Origin: a bacterium
GTDB taxonomy: Bacteria; Chloroflexota; Dormibacteria; UBA8260; Bog-877
Direction of reading: 5' to 3'
Assembly (NCBI GenBank): GCA_021817185.1
Contig: JAKAVU010000089.1
Location: forward strand, 1-9,954
Length of the DNA: 9,954 bases
In this document: positions 4,752-9,954 of the stretch, in pieces
Layout of the letters: each line of letters opens with the position of its first letter
Position numbering within the stretch: the stretch's first letter is position 1
Made by a program: the position numbers and the translations under genes
Notes under the pieces: generated by a model
The model's database searches: none
Told to the model about the DNA's origin: nothing
What the model saw: the letters and a program-made list of their open reading frames with translations, nothing else

Positions 4752-4782
4752 CGCGCCGGCCGCCCGCGCACTCTCTCGTCAG
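4748..4782. terminator. Possible bidirectional terminator between convergent genes
   Basis: Only 27 bp separate the stop codons of the convergent MFS and lyase genes. CTGACG (4748-4753) and CGTCAG (4777-4782) form an inverted repeat that includes both stop codons, with a GC-rich interior that can pair further. There is no T-tract on either side, and the symmetry may just reflect two TGA codons in similar contexts. Confidence 0.25.
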
Positions 4783-5723
4783 CGGTCGAGGGATTGCCCG
4801 GTCCAGATCCCGGCTCGGTACAGCCGGCCCGGGAGAACCACCCCCAGGGTCGTCTCCAGGTAGGCGGCGGTGTCGCACAGAGCCTGAAGATCGGCCGGGG
4901 AGCTGGCGCCCACCCGCTTCAACATGTGCAGGAGGTCCTCGCTGCAGACGTTCCCGGTCGCCCGGGGCGCGAACGGGCAGCCCCCGATCCCCCCCACCGA
5001 CCCCTCGAACCGCCTGACTCCGAGCTCGTAGGCGGCCAGGGCGTTGGCGAGGCCCATCGCCCTGGTGTCGTGGAAGTGCAGCGAGAGCTGCTCGGTGGGG
5101 ATCCCCGAGCGGAGCAGGTGCTCGATCAGGGATCCGACCTGGCGCGGGTCGGCCACCCCGATGGTGTCTGCGATCCCGATTTCGTCCGCGCCCAGCTCCT
5201 GGCACCGGTCCGCCAGCTCGGCCACCCTGTCCTCGTCGACCCGGCCCTCGAACGGGCAGCCGAATGCGACGCTGAGACCGATGTCGAACCGGCAGCTCGC
5301 CGCCCGCGCCGCGGCGGCCATCTCTCCCAGTTCGATCAGCGTCTCCTCCACCGTCCGATTCAGATTGCGCCGGTTGAAGCTGTCGGTGACTCCGAGGTTG
5401 GCCACCACGTGGCTGACGCCGGCCTGGAGAGCCCTCTCCAGGCCCCTGGCGTTGGGCACCAGAACTCGGACCCGTCCCAGTACCGAATGCCCGCGCGCCG
5501 CCACCAGTCCGGCGATCAGGTCCTCCGCGTCCCCCATCCTCGGGACCCACTTCGCAGACACGAAGGAGGTCGCCTCGACCTGGTCCACCCCCGCGTCCAG
5601 CAACCGACCCACCAGCGCCAACTTGGACTCGGTCGGGACCTCGGCATCGAGATTCTGGAGCCCGTCTCGGGGGCCGACCTCGGTGAAGAACAGAGCGCGG
5701 GGATGCCCGGCCAAGAGGTCCAT
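4779..5723 (-). CDS. Hydroxymethylglutaryl-CoA lyase family protein (MvaB type)
   Basis: Cytoplasmic TIM-barrel lyase of the HMGL-like family, 314 residues, the usual length for bacterial HMG-CoA lyase, which cleaves HMG-CoA to acetyl-CoA and acetoacetate at the end of leucine degradation. The E-V-G-P-R-D-G-L-Q-N block (15-24) supplies R19 and metal ligand D20. H216 and H218 in L-H-F-H-D-T are metal ligands, and C249 in the G-I-G-G-C-P-F-A loop is the expected catalytic cysteine. N258 completes the metal site. All residues known to matter in human and bacterial enzymes are present. A related activity, isohexenylglutaryl-CoA lyase or another HMG-type acyl-CoA lyase, cannot be excluded, because no other leucine-pathway gene is visible. 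The start is ATG 5723-5721; a 78-residue in-frame extension is rejected because the domain begins here and a -10 box (5737-5732) lies just upstream. It diverges from the formate dehydrogenase operon. Confidence 0.88.
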   Translation of the reverse strand: MDLLAGHPRALFFTEVGPRDGLQNLDAEVPTESKLALVGRLLDAGVDQVEATSFVSAKWVPRMGDAEDLIAGLVAARGHSVLGRVRVLVPNARGLERALQAGVSHVVANLGVTDSFNRRNLNRTVEETLIELGEMAAAARAASCRFDIGLSVAFGCPFEGRVDEDRVAELADRCQELGADEIGIADTIGVADPRQVGSLIEHLLRSGIPTEQLSLHFHDTRAMGLANALAAYELGVRRFEGSVGGIGGCPFAPRATGNVCSEDLLHMLKRVGASSPADLQALCDTAAYLETTLGVVLPGRLYRAGIWTGQSLDR

Positions 5724-5731
5724 CGGGAGCC

Positions 5732-5737
5732 AGTCTA
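5732..5737 (-). promoter_or_regulatory. Candidate -10 box (TAGACT) for the lyase gene, leaderless
   Basis: TAGACT reads on the minus strand at 5737-5732, with 8 nt between it and the ATG at 5723. No Shine-Dalgarno sequence precedes that ATG. Spacing predicts transcription starting at or 1-2 nt before the start codon. No -35 is evident. Confidence 0.42.
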
Positions 5738-5763
5738 AGCCGCCGGGGGCCGAGGACTCGCGG

Positions 5764-5769
5764 TATCCT
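5764..5769 (+). promoter_or_regulatory. Candidate -10 box (TATCCT) for the formate dehydrogenase operon
   Basis: TATCCT lies in the 85-bp divergent gap between the lyase and formate dehydrogenase starts. The expected transcription start is near 5776, giving a leader of about 33 nt before the ATG at 5809. An ATG at 5776 opens a six-codon frame ending in TAG at 5794-5796, immediately before the ribosome-binding site. No -35 is recognisable. Confidence 0.42.
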
Positions 5770-5798
5770 ACGCCTATGCTGCGGGCGATCCGGTAGTC

Positions 5799-5803
5799 GG
5801 AGG
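5799..5803 (+). promoter_or_regulatory. Shine-Dalgarno site of the formate dehydrogenase alpha gene
   Basis: GGAGG with 5 nt spacing to the ATG at 5809 fixes that codon as the start. It lies 2 nt after the TAG of a possible six-codon upstream frame. Confidence 0.7.
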
Positions 5804-5808
5804 GCGGG

Positions 5809-8800
5809 ATGTCGATCAGGCAAAACCTGCCCCAATGGCCGGTGATCCGGCAGCTGACCGAGGACGACCCGCTCGGCCTGGGGCGCAGCGCCGCCTCCAC
5901 GAAGACCAGGGAACTGGAGCCCCGGACCGCCCTCGCCGACCGGGTGGTGCCCTCCATCTGTCCCTACTGCGCGGTGGGGTGCGGCCAGCTGGTCTACGTC
6001 AAGGACGAGCAGGTCACCCAGATCGAGGGCGACCCGGCCAGCCCGCTGTCCCGAGGACGTCTCTGCCCCAAGGGCTCGGCCAGCAAGGAGCTGGTCAGCA
6101 GCCCCCTGCGCGAGCTGAAGGTGAAATACCGGCGCCCTCACGGCACCGCGTGGGAGGAGCTCGACCTGGATCAGGCGATGGACATGATCGCGGACCGGGT
6201 GATCGCCACCCGGCGGGCCAGCTTCGAGCGGTCCGACGACCAGGGCCGTCCGCTCCGGCGCACCATGGCGATCGCCAGCCTCGGCGGGGCGACCATCGAC
6301 AACGAGGAGAACTACCTCTGGCGCAAGTTGATGGTGGGCCTGGGGGTGGTCCAGGTCGAGAACCAGGCCCGAATATGACACTCGGCCACTGTTCCCGGTC
6401 TGGGAACCAGCTTCGGTAGGGGCGGCGCCACCACCTTCCCGGGAGACCTGCAGAACTCCGACTGCATCGTGGTCATGGGATCGAACATGGCGGAGTGCCA
6501 TCCGGTCGCCTTCCAGTGGGTTGTGGAGGCCAAGCTCAAGGGCGGCACGCTGATTCACGTCGACCCCCGCTTCACCCGCACCAGCGCCATGGCCGACCGC
6601 CACATCCCGATCCGGGCTGGCAGCGACATCGCCTTCCTCGGCGGCCTGATCCGCTACGTGCTCGAGCAGGAGCGGTACTTCGCCGAGTACCTGCGCAGCT
6701 ACACCAACGCCGCCACCATCATCGACGAGCGGTACCTGGACACCGAGGATCTCGACGGTTTCTTCTCAGGCTGGAACGAGAACGAGCGCCGTTACGACAA
6801 CGCCAGCTGGCAGTACCAGGGGGGGACGATCCACGCCTCCGCCGGCCAGCGGACGGCCCCTGGTGGGCAGGCGGGAGGCCAGCCGGTGATGGGCCGGGTC
6901 CCGGCCGAGGATCCGTCGCTGCAGCATCCCCGCTGCGTCTTCCAGCTGCTGCGCCGACACTTCTCGCGCTACACCCCGGAGATGGTGGAAGCGGTGTCCG
7001 GGGTCCCTCGAGACCAGTTCCTGGAGCTGGCCGAGACGATCTGCGCCAATTCCGGGCGCGACCGCACGACCGCCTTCGTGTACGCGGTCGGTTGGACCCA
7101 GCACACCGCCGGGGCGCAGTTCATCCGCACCGCCGCCATCCTGCAGCTTTTGCTGGGCAACATGGGCAGGCCCGGTGGCGGGATCCTGGCCCTCAGGGGA
7201 CACGCCAACATCCAGGGGGCAACCGACATCGCGACCCTGTTCGATGTCCTCCCGGGCTATCTGCCCGTCCCCAAGGTCGATGACACAACCGACCTGGACG
7301 AGTTCTGCCGGCTCAACGGCGGGGAGGCGGGAGGCTACTGGGGCAACCTGCGCAACTACCTGGTCTCCCTGCTGAAGGCCTACTGGGGCGAGGCGGCCAC
7401 CGCCGGCAACCAGTATGGGTTCGACTACCTTCACCGCCTGACTGGCGATCACTCCACGTACCAGAGCACGCTGGGGATGGTCGACGGCTGGGTGAAGGGG
7501 TTCTTCGTGCTCGGCGAGAACCCGGCGGTGGGGTCAGCCCACGGTGGCCTGCACCGGAAGGGGCTGCGCAATCTCGACTGGCTGGTGGTGCGTGACCTCT
7601 ACGAGATCGAGTCGGCCAGCTTCTGGTACGACTCGCCGGAGGTTGCCTCGGGCGAGGTTCGGGCTGAGGACATCGCCACCGAGGTCTTCTTCCTGCCGGC
7701 GGCGGCGCACACCGAGAAGAGCGGGTCGTTCACCAACACCCAGCGCCTCCTCCAGTGGCACGAGTTGGCGGTCGAACCCCGCGGCGACTGCCGGTCCGAG
7801 CTGTGGTTCGCCTACTGGCTCGGCCGCAAGATCAGGGCCAAGCTGCAGGAGAGTCCCGAGCTGGACGACCGTCCCATCCTCGACCTGAGCTGGGACTACC
7901 CGCTCCTGGCGTCCGGCGATCCTGACCCGGAGGCGGTGCTGAGGGAGATCACGGGCCGCTCCTTGAGCGGCGAGCCGCTGCCGGGGCTGGGGGCCATCAA
8001 GGGGGACGGGTCGACCACCTGTGGCTGTTGGATCTACGCCGGCGCATTTGCGGGCGGGGAGAATCTGACCGCCCGCCGGCGTCCCCACTGGGAGCAGAAC
8101 TGGGTCGCCCTCGACTGGGGGTGGGCGTGGCCCATGAACCGGCGAATCCTCTACAACCGCGCCTCCGCTGACCCCTCGGGACGGCCTTGGTCCGAGCGCA
8201 AACGCTATGTCGAGTGGAGCGAGGAGCAGGCCCGCTGGGTGGGCCCGGACACCCCCGACTTCCCCGTTGATAGGCGCCCCGACTACCAGCCCCCGGAGGG
8301 AGCGGTGGCGGAGAACTGCCTCGCGGGTGACCGTCCCTTCATCATGCAGGCGGACGGCCGCGGCTGGCTGTTCGCCCCCAGCGGGCTGGTGGATGGTCCC
8401 CTGCCCACCCACTACGAGCCCCAAGAGTCGCCCCTGCGCAACGCCCTCTACGAGCAGGAGCGCAACCCGGCGCGCCAGGTCTTCCGGCGCGCGGACAACC
8501 CCTACCACCCCACGGCCGGCGAGGCAGGCAGCGAGGAGTACCCCTTTGTGATGACGACCTACCGGCTCACCGAGCACCACACCGCCGGGGGCATGAGCCG
8601 GTTCCTGTCACGCTTGAGCCAGCTGCAGCCGGAGATGTTCTGCGAGGTCAGCCCCGAGCTGGCGCAGGCCCGCGGGCTGCGGCCCGGCGGCTGGGCGACC
8701 ATCGTCACCATGCGGGCATCGATCGAGGCGAGGGTGCTGGTCACCCCCAGGATGACGGCGCTGAAGTTCGGCGACCGGATGGTTCACCAGGTCGGGCTCC

Positions 8801-8952
8801 CGTACCACTGGGGGAGCCGCGGGCTGGTCAGGGGTGACTCCGCCAACGATGTCTTCCCGCTGGTGCTGGATCCCAACGTCCACATCCAGGAGGTGAAGGC
8901 CGCCACCTGTGACATCAGGCCGGGCCGGCGCTCCCGCGGAGGCTTCTCGTGA
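5809..8952 (+). CDS. fdhA: Formate dehydrogenase catalytic alpha subunit, selenocysteine-containing (FdnG/FdhA type)
   Basis: Oxidises formate to CO2 (or the reverse) at a Mo/W-bis-MGD centre. It is read as one 1047-residue selenoprotein: the TGA at codon 190 stays in frame with 857 further codons of the same family. C51-P-Y-C54-A-V-G-C58 and C86 (L-C-P-K-G) bind the N-terminal [4Fe-4S] cluster. Q-A-R-I-Sec190-H191 is the active site, with the histidine conserved next to selenium. Further family blocks are Y-A-V-G-W-T-Q-H-T (425-433), G-R-P-G-G-G-I-L-A-L-R-G-H (453-465), G-E-N-P-A-V-G-S (569-576) and H-T-E-K-S-G-S-F-T-N-T-Q-R (634-646). The molybdopterin-dinucleotide-binding domain spans about 905-1035. 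A Gly/Gln-rich variable insert is at about 335-367. The N-terminus has no twin-arginine signal or hydrophobic stretch, so the protein probably stays in the cytoplasm. The stop overlaps the next gene by 4 bp. The unusual feature is UGA recoding; a conventional caller would report two fragments. Confidence 0.96.
6376..6378 (+). other. In-frame UGA selenocysteine codon (Sec190)
   Basis: TGA interrupts the formate dehydrogenase frame exactly where selenocysteine sits in E. coli FdnG and FdhF. The preceding residues Q-A-R-I and following H-S-A-T-V match the family's A-R-x-U-H active-site context, and the same frame continues with family sequence to 8952. No start codon with a ribosome-binding site lies directly after it. 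Confidence 0.95.
6389..6410 (+). promoter_or_regulatory. Bacterial SECIS hairpin downstream of the UGA
   Basis: GTTCCC (6391-6396), loop GGTCT (6397-6401), GGGAAC (6402-6407) is a perfect six-pair stem. An alternative longer stem uses CTG (6389-6391) with CAG (6408-6410) and one bulged C at 6407. The apical GGUCU is the SelB-recognised loop sequence known from E. coli fdhF and fdnG. The loop begins 18 nt after the UGA, the same spacing I recall for E. coli fdhF. The element lies inside the coding sequence, as bacterial SECIS elements do, and would recruit SelB with Sec-tRNA. Confidence 0.88.
8938..8942 (+). promoter_or_regulatory. Shine-Dalgarno site of the Fe-S subunit gene
   Basis: GGAGG lies inside the end of the alpha-subunit gene with 6 nt spacing to the GTG at 8949. 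It supports that GTG over the later in-frame ATG at 9015, which sits directly before the first cluster motif. Confidence 0.65.
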
Positions 8953-9776
8953 CCGTCACCCAGCCGCGCCAGGCAGCCGTGCCCTTGCCGGTCTGGCAGG
9001 CGGGGGGGGTCCGCATGGGGTTCTTCACCGACACCTCGATCTGCATCGGCTGCAAGGCGTGCGAGGTCGCCTGCAAGGAGTGGAACGGGGTGCCGGACGT
9101 CGACCCGACCTGGTCAGGCCACTCCTACGACAACACCATGCGCCTGGGCGCCAACAGCTGGCGTCACGTCGCCTTCGTGGAACGCCGCCGTCCGGACTCG
9201 GGGCAGGGGATGCAGTGGCTGATGAGCTCGGACGTGTGCAAGCACTGCACCCGCGCCGCCTGCATGGAGGTCTGCCCCACCGGCGCCATCTTCCGGACCG
9301 AGTTCGGCACCGTGGTGGTCCAGGACGACGTTTGCAACGGATGCGGATACTGCGTGTCCGCCTGCCCGTTCGGGGTCATCGAAAGGCGCGCCGATGATGG
9401 CCGAGCCTTCAAATGCACCCTCTGCTACGACCGGCTCAAGGTCGGCGAAAAGCCGGCCTGCGCCAAGGCCTGCCCGACCGAGTCGATTCAGTTCGGTCCC
9501 CTTGAGGAGCTACGGGAGAGGGCCACAGTCCGCCTGGCCACGGTGCGAGCGGAGCCCGGCCACGAGAGCGCCCAGCTCTATGGAGCCGACGAGGGTGACG
9601 GGGTCGGCGGCTTCGGCGCCTTCTTCCTGCTGCTGGACCGGCCCGAGGTCTACGGGATGCCGCCCTCTCCCACCTACCGGCGCCGCGAACTGGCCACCAT
9701 GTGGGGAGTGGCGTCGGTGGCGTCGGCGCTGATCCTGGCCGGGGTTTTCGGCTCACTGCGGAGGAAGGACAGGTGA
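8949..9776 (+). CDS. fdhB: Formate dehydrogenase Fe-S (beta) subunit, four [4Fe-4S] clusters, C-terminal TM anchor
   Basis: Electron-transfer subunit, 275 residues, FdnH/FdoH-like. Sixteen cysteines fall in the dicluster-ferredoxin pattern: C32-I-G-C35-K-A-C38-E-V-A-C42; C97-K-H-C100 with C105 and C109-P; C129-N-G-C132-G-Y-C135-V-S-A-C139-P; and C156-T-L-C159 with C171 and C175-P. This is enough for four [4Fe-4S] clusters carrying electrons from the alpha subunit to the membrane. Residues about 249-268 form one hydrophobic helix, followed by R-R-K-D-R at the end, comparable to the C-terminal anchor of FdnH. Basic residues flank the helix on both sides (R244-R246 and 271-275), so its orientation is not obvious. 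The GTG start overlaps the alpha stop as GTGA, and the GTG of the next gene overlaps its own stop likewise. No signal peptide is visible. Confidence 0.93.
   Translation: MTVTQPRQAAVPLPVWQAGGVRMGFFTDTSICIGCKACEVACKEWNGVPDVDPTWSGHSYDNTMRLGANSWRHVAFVERRRPDSGQGMQWLMSSDVCKHCTRAACMEVCPTGAIFRTEFGTVVVQDDVCNGCGYCVSACPFGVIERRADDGRAFKCTLCYDRLKVGEKPACAKACPTESIQFGPLEELRERATVRLATVRAEPGHESAQLYGADEGDGVGGFGAFFLLLDRPEVYGMPPSPTYRRRELATMWGVASVASALILAGVFGSLRRKDR
9760..9764 (+). promoter_or_regulatory. Shine-Dalgarno site of the NrfD-type subunit gene
   Basis: GGAGG, in the longer purine run GGAGGAAGG, lies 8 nt before the GTG at 9773 and supports that overlapping start. Confidence 0.6.
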
Positions 9777-9954
9777 GCCCGGGCCCGGACTCTGGCGAGC
9801 GGGCCATGGTGCCGCGGGCCGAACCGCGCTCCTACTACGGTCTGCCGATCGTGAAGCGGCCGGCCTGGACGGTGGAGGTGCCCTGGTACTTCTTCGTTGG
9901 CGGTGCCACCGGAGCGCTCTCCGCCACCGCCATGGCGGCCCGCAGGTTGGAGAT
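9773..9954 (+). CDS. nrfD: NrfD/PsrC-family membrane subunit (N-terminus only, truncated by window end)
   Basis: Only the first 60 residues are visible, starting at GTG 9773, which overlaps the beta-subunit stop as GTGA. After a short polar leader come R19-S-Y-Y-G-L-P-I-V-K-R-P-A-W-T-V-E-V-P-W38 and then the first membrane helix Y-F-F-V-G-G-A-T-G-A-L-S (39-50). A Y-Y-G-x-P-x-V-K-x-P-x-W leader followed by a P-W-Y-F-F-x-G-G helix is characteristic of NrfD/PsrC-type quinone-interacting subunits found beside selenocysteine formate dehydrogenases. The expected role is to anchor the Fe-S and catalytic subunits and exchange electrons with a quinone. With only the N-terminus visible, the helix count and quinone-site residues cannot be checked. 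Confidence 0.82.
   Translation, partial: MSPGPDSGERAMVPRAEPRSYYGLPIVKRPAWTVEVPWYFFVGGATGALSATAMAARRLE

Follow-up and report, generated by a model that had tools for sequence, protein, structure and literature searches.

An in-frame TGA in a formate dehydrogenase gene probably read as selenocysteine in a bacterium grouping with Candidatus Dormiibacterota

The first 9,954 nucleotides of contig JAKAVU010000089.1 (the whole stretch is called the window here) contain fdhA, a gene for the alpha subunit of a formate dehydrogenase, and its reading frame is interrupted by a TGA at 6376-6378. We conclude that fdhA very probably (about 95%) encodes one protein, in which this UGA is decoded as selenocysteine (Sec). 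An in-frame stop codon read as Sec is a textbook mechanism and can be mistaken by gene finders for a sign of two genes. A preliminary description, made from the letters of the DNA alone, had already proposed this decoding. The proposal is very well supported by four kinds of sequence evidence: alignment with the family, a covarying selenocysteine insertion sequence (SECIS), a match between TAG codons and CTA anticodons in some relatives, and co-occurrence with the Sec genes (sel) in relatives. The features concerned are as follows.

5799..5804, plus strand: Shine-Dalgarno-like GGAGGG, 4 nucleotides before ATG 5809 (by eye)
5809..8952, plus strand: fdhA, formate dehydrogenase alpha subunit with predicted Sec190, 1047 amino acids (NF041513.1, TIGR01553, Pfam)
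6376..6378, plus strand: TGA predicted to be read as Sec, residue 190, in A-R-I-U-H (family alignment and relatives' codons)
6391..6407, plus strand: putative bacterial SECIS hairpin, with arms GTTCCC (6391-6396) and GGGAAC (6402-6407) and loop GGTCT (6397-6401)

Translation of 5809-8952 with TGA as U meets a single internal stop, at 6376-6378, before the terminal TGA at 8950-8952. The preliminary description stated that a 189-codon frame ends at the internal TGA and goes on for 857 codons, and this was right to the base: the 189-amino-acid open reading frame covers 5809..6378, and residues 191-1047 make up the 857 codons beyond. It also held that both parts belong to the same enzyme with no gap in family sequence, and two family models agree, each matching in one stretch across the TGA. 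NF041513.1 (formate_DH_Act) scores 1793.5 bits over residues 7-1044, above its cut-off of 1400; TIGR01553 (formate dehydrogenase-N alpha) scores 920 bits over residues 22-1035, against a cut-off of 814.2. PF04879, PF00384 and PF01568 are each over cut-off in the product, which has an Fe4S4 domain (45-96), a molybdopterin domain (within 150-598) and a dinucleotide-binding domain (913-1031). The context of residue 190 is Q-A-R-I-U-H-S, as expected from the A-R-x-U-H context named in that description. The alignment at position 190 that it had proposed gave a clear answer: in PDB 1h0h the counterpart of residue 190 is printed as X, and its surroundings, QARI-X-HSATV, are identical. We take 1h0h to be the formate dehydrogenase of Desulfovibrio gigas, its X to be Sec and its metal to be tungsten.

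Splitting of the gene by naive annotation, also foreseen, is found in public data. Eight of the best 120 matches listed in a protein database comparison are C-terminal pieces of 825-850 amino acids that start downstream of the TGA, and these have the highest identities (73-88%, against 59-63% for the other 112 listed). Among those 112, the letter at the site is C in 111 and another letter in one (P0009); from these letters, records of cysteine (Cys) and of recoded Sec are indistinguishable.

The codon at the site was compared in 81 sequences, namely the window and the best 80 (L001-L080) of at least 577 relatives confirmed in a genome scan with one genome per species. It is TGA in 75 (the window and 74 loci), TAG in two (L044 from Blastococcus and L049 from Geodermatophilus) and TGC in four (L038, L055, L065 and L074). 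The genomes of the two TAG loci have an RF01852 match over cut-off with the anticodon cta, in a gene that ARAGORN labels tRNA-Pyl. In 14 loci scanned with ARAGORN, the anticodon is tca in 12 (from 9 genomes) and cta in the other two. Sec at UAG in formate dehydrogenases of Geodermatophilaceae is already published (PMC5330540); L044 and L049 are of that kind, and the window differs from them in having TGA. Two Geodermatophilaceae genomes, G020 and G022, carry two fdhA copies each, all with TAG. We also read the site in 36 loci collected around the class of L008, a Candidatus Dormiibacterota locus collinear with the window (30 plus six further loci, of which L158 lies outside the class); 35 have TGA and one, L148 of genome G255, has TGC.

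The hairpin downstream of the TGA has a stem of 6 bp and a 5-nt loop, GGUCU, 18 nt from the TGA; folding of the alignment adds a seventh pair, which leaves a 3-nt loop. At the same five loop positions E. coli fdhF has GGTCT and fdnG has AGTCT, in identical register, and all 77 stop-codon sequences, the window included, have GGTCT, AGTCT or AGTTT. The bacterial SECIS model, as given in PMC13188914, has a stem of 4-16 bp, a loop of 3-9 nt with G among its first two positions, 16-37 nt from UGA to loop, conserved pairing and a free energy of -7.5 kcal/mol or lower. The window hairpin agrees with this listed model in stem, loop, G, spacing, conserved pairing and energy, the last being -10.3 kcal/mol for 6376-6415 (z -0.22 against shuffles).

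We aligned 73 of the 77 stop-codon rows (70 distinct), leaving out L003, L005, L006 and L007, which equal L002 over 48 bases. With the TGA as positions 1-3, the stem is 16-21/27-32 and the loop 22-26. In this alignment 99.8% of 420 cells are paired, and stem registers that are slid pair only 32.6-65.0%. Changes on both sides were counted in 18 cells (shuffle mean 3.2), and the covariation score was 0.229 (shuffle mean 0.118); neither value was reached by any of 500 shuffles, a null that ignores relatedness. The two pairs with both-side changes, 18-30 and 21-27, join third codon positions, and therefore protein constraint does not explain their covariation. Furthermore, loop positions G23 and T24 are invariant in 73 of 73 rows, and the loop codons are rare in these genes (GGT is 620 of 6786 GGN codons, AGT 128 of 1341 AGY codons). 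All six pairs are kept in none of the four TGC loci, nor is T24. Among the class loci, 34 of the 35 with TGA have all six pairs, and the TGC locus L148 has four pairs and a changed loop. Thus, the sequence evidence for a SECIS is the number of covarying cells, the near-unbroken pairs and the covariation at third codon bases.

No tRNA was found in the window, and no sel gene was found among the window genes scanned. Searches were made in 28 genomes chosen among those of the 80 loci and in 14 named control genomes. Over cut-off in the 28 genomes were tRNA-Sec in 24, SelA in 23, SelD in 25 and SelB in 21; the control counts are 5, 1 (E. coli), 2 and 2, respectively. Judged by these control counts, SelA and SelD are more informative than the other two. 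The SelB model had hits in 28 of 28 genomes and 14 of 14 controls, apparently including other translation factors, and only the top match per genome was read against the cut-off of 242.25. Three genomes whose sole fdhA copy has TGC (G023, G025 and G027) have tRNA-Sec, SelA and SelD all below cut-off, and their best SelB-model hits, of 91-202 bits, are below it as well. The fourth TGC genome, G019 (Actinacidiphila acididurans), has tRNA-Sec, SelA and SelD; besides its TGC copy, L038, it carries a TGA copy, L158, on the same contig as the sel genes and 2.8 kb from selD.

In most of the nearest relatives, sel genes lie near fdhA. The window is collinear with L008 (fdhA 85%), and both have genes in the order ABC transporter genes, BrkB-like, MFS transporter, HMGL-like, fdhA, fdhB, fdhC. 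Beyond these, the contig of L008, whose fdhC is of NrfD type, has a CGNR zinc-finger gene and then, encoded on the opposite strand, selD, selB (whose product has SelB winged-helix domains) and selA. This selD-selB-selA group begins 2.8 kb past fdhA, and the window ends 1.0 kb past fdhA. In six of the eight nearest genomes (G001-G005 and G008), selD lies on the fdhA contig at a gap of 2.0-3.4 kb, and in five (G001, G003, G004, G005 and G008) selA and selB are on that contig too. In G001-G008, the top SelD match of every genome is free of in-frame TGA; the SelD matches of G009, G011, G012, G013 and G014 have one, as expected of a Sec-containing SelD. From these relatives we infer that the host has a working Sec pathway.

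Co-occurrence was also examined in 110 genomes of the class of L008, with match thresholds of E 1e-10 for SelA and E 1e-100 for fdhA. SelA has a match in 82 genomes (79 over cut-off) and fdhA in 71. An fdhA match that covers the site and bears TGA is present in 65 genomes, and SelA is found in 62 of these, versus 20 of the 45 others (Fisher p 1.3e-9, kinship not corrected). Beyond the 36 loci that were read, TGA status comes from an automated stop count, and a few of the other 45 genomes hold fdhA pieces missing the site. Without 22 genomes whose only match is an FdnG-like paralogue (40-42% identity), SelA is found in 42 of 43. The only class genome with a stop-free match over the site is G255, which has TGC and no SelA match. 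SelA was also found in 164 of 201 genomes drawn evenly from the phylum, a figure that is uninformative on fdhA. A second fdhA clade in the class is FdnG-like (L153, L154, L156 and L157, from G130, G266, G122 and G278), likewise with TGA, a six-pair hairpin and the loop AGTTT; a twin-arginine-like RRDFLK lies near the N-terminus of L153. Extra in-frame TAG codons in G130 and G266 were considered as recoding and rejected: the one in L153 falls within conserved sequence close to the Fe-S domain and disrupts it, and the frame of L154 breaks down from the extra TAG onward, so they were taken as assembly error or decay.

Several observations weigh against Sec decoding in the window. The sel genes of the source organism are deduced from relatives, and all four are over cut-off in only five of the eight nearest genomes (G002, G003, G004, G005 and G007). 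SelB is just under its cut-off in G001 (235.6) and G008 (235.3), the SelA of G001 is broken into three pieces, and G006 has a partial SelA and a tRNA-Sec under cut-off. The tRNA-Sec model is not fully specific, as it is over cut-off in 5 of 14 controls. In the class, the TGA genomes G122, G225 and G278 lack a SelA match, and 20 genomes have SelA and no TGA-bearing fdhA match over the site, which may be explained by other selenoproteins or incomplete assemblies. As for the hairpin, both-side changes occur in only two of its six pairs, and 106 of 500 shuffles have at least as many; L022 breaks one pair (1 of 420 cells), and L139, with TGA, has five of six. Taken by itself, the window hairpin does not exceed shuffles in stability (z -0.22 to +1.11), and the window has no Rfam match at gathering scores; for these two reasons the case for a SECIS rests on the relatives.

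The first of these points bears on the least improbable rival explanation, that a Sec-type gene was left stranded when its host lost the sel genes, and that only a truncated product is made. Three of 65 TGA-bearing class genomes do lack SelA. Nevertheless, draft genomes can miss genes through incompleteness, the collinear L008 has selD 2.8 kb past fdhA, and the frame beyond the TGA is intact and conserved in the window, so that we regard a stranded gene as very unlikely.

Three further explanations have even less in their favor. A nonsense mutation or a sequencing error in a Cys enzyme, giving a pseudogene or a wrong base, could be imagined because the TGC form exists in 4 of 80 relatives and in G255. 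Against this, 74 of 80 relatives have TGA at this codon, amino-acid changes are few compared with synonymous ones on both sides of it in the nearest kin, the SECIS accompanies the stop codon and has been lost in TGC forms, and the single clade that holds all five TGC rows lies apart from the window. This explanation is thus extremely improbable. Alternatively, two genes might encode a split enzyme, one giving a short protein for the N-terminal part and the other, with its own start, the C-terminal part, as the C-terminal pieces yielded by gene callers would have it. The first in-frame ATG, GTG or TTG after the TGA is GTG 6469, with 30 codons in between, and no Shine-Dalgarno-like sequence was seen before it by eye. 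These 30 codons (residues 191-220) look translated: between the window and L008 they have 12 synonymous and one non-synonymous codon changes, and in each of the six relatives compared their amino-acid identity (0.77-0.97) exceeds that of either flanking part. They also carry the His beside Sec. Since a split enzyme leaves the TAG/CTA and TGC states unexplained as well, we consider it scarcely credible. Finally, TGA might be a sense codon throughout, or be read by a suppressor tRNA as Cys or Trp, and the frame would be open under such a code, but all six window genes with checked ends stop at TGA, an ordinary stop here, and close relatives have tRNA-Sec (tca) with SelA, SelB and SelD matches, so this can practically be dismissed.

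The best match to the fdhA product among solved structures is PDB 1h0h (707.9 bits), which comes from a different organism and has a different subunit make-up. E. coli FdnGHI (PDB 1kqf, matched over window residues 43-1036) shares with the window the alpha family TIGR01553, a UGA followed by a His codon, the loop register of its SECIS and the alpha-beta-gamma gene order. In contrast to FdnGHI, no twin-arginine signal was seen by eye in the window protein, and the membrane subunit is NrfD-like in the two relatives scanned. FdnI is a cytochrome b. The E. coli SECIS carries a bulged U, unlike the window hairpin with its six unbroken pairs. The preliminary description referred to alpha subunits of the FdnG/FdhF type; the best model (NF041513), together with the two differences from FdnGHI just named, indicates that the protein is not simply FdnG. 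Within the NF041513 family, the window matches over the full length and has 60-66% identity to L009-L080, mostly titled actinobacteria, from which it stands apart in a separate clade. Streptomyces incarnatus, according to PMC4498112, likewise has in one genome a Sec formate dehydrogenase (called FDH-O there) and the selABCD genes. The motif UHxP is given for FdhA in Table 1 of PMC13188914. The window has UHSA. PDB 1h0h likewise has XHSA, and therefore UHxP does not define the family.

Downstream of fdhA, the window contains two further genes of the operon.

8949..9776, plus strand: fdhB, iron-sulfur beta subunit, 275 amino acids (Fer4_11 over cut-off)
9773..9954, plus strand: first part of fdhC, membrane subunit, truncated where the window ends (similarity to L008 and L001)

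The GTG start of fdhB overlaps the fdhA stop (GTGA 8949-8952, 4 nt), and the GTG of fdhC overlaps the fdhB stop in the same way (GTGA 9773-9776, 4 nt). The best NCBIfam model for fdhB is TIGR01582 (FDH-beta), at 182.4 bits below its cut-off of 334.7, and the last 25 residues of FdhB look by eye like a membrane anchor. The fdhC start has 82% identity over 50 amino acids to L008 and 68% over 53 to L001, the two relatives scanned, in both of which fdhC has an NrfD Pfam match. Upstream, the longest frame of an HMGL-like gene (hydroxymethylglutaryl-CoA lyase family; 4779-5957, minus strand) runs over the beginning of fdhA; with a start further on, near 5723, the gene suits the matched homologues better and forms a divergent pair with fdhA. 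The fdhABC operon probably encodes a membrane-linked, molybdopterin-dependent formate dehydrogenase. SelB with Sec-tRNA-Sec (UCA anticodon) would bind the hairpin at 6391-6407, so that the UGA receives Sec and translation does not terminate there. In the active site, Sec190 would be the ligand of molybdenum or tungsten, and electrons would pass via FdhB to an NrfD-like, quinone-linked subunit.

We placed fdhA in a quick tree of 103 rows with Shimodaira-Hasegawa-like approximate likelihood ratio test (SH-aLRT) support, in which the outgroup, E. coli FdnG, has a very long branch, L015 is 43% filled and the order of the deep forks is unsure. The class is represented by best-scoring loci only: 20 of the 30 remain after removal of L123-L130, which repeat L001-L008, and of L132 and L133, which repeat L012 and L017. 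L071 and L144 are identical and both were kept; L071 is therefore counted as a class member. The window groups with L008 (support 100), and both belong to a clade of nine rows, also supported at 100, that the window shares with Candidatus Dormiibacterota loci. All five TGC rows fall together in a single clade (support 99) that sits among the stop-codon rows, with one change in all, and the TAG state also requires one change. The class member in the TGC clade is L148, whose site is on the minus strand; it stands there with Nocardia, Streptomycetaceae and Acidimicrobiales copies. Rows of the class of L008 do not form one clade (approximately unbiased test, p-AU 2.5e-5; at least four changes), which suggests transfer; paralogues and mis-binned contigs could add to the scatter. 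According to PMC13188914 and PMC1794560, most Sec-to-Cys changes on record concern FdhA and SelD, and fdhA often lies next to sel genes and can be transferred with them; our tree and the picture of transfer agree with these.

In summary, fdhA is a standard selenoprotein formate dehydrogenase gene with a standard bacterial SECIS, and the finding is correct and ordinary. Our searches of open-licence PubMed Central papers listed none on Sec in Candidatus Dormiibacterota. What is mildly new is that Sec decoding is now recorded, by sequence, in the lineage so titled, and that the tree has the Cys form apparently arising once. The result also corrects a misannotation that is present, as C-terminal pieces of 825-850 amino acids, among the nearest kin in the protein database. 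It is a tentative idea, rather less likely than its alternatives, that fdhABC and selDBA, in soil actinobacteria and in the class of L008, act as one dispensable unit that crosses phylum lines, and that the enzyme became independent of this unit, and able to enter genomes without sel genes, when Sec changed once to Cys and the SECIS loop was lost. If this is true, the family would be well suited, as a natural experiment, to studying why genomes retain selenocysteine.

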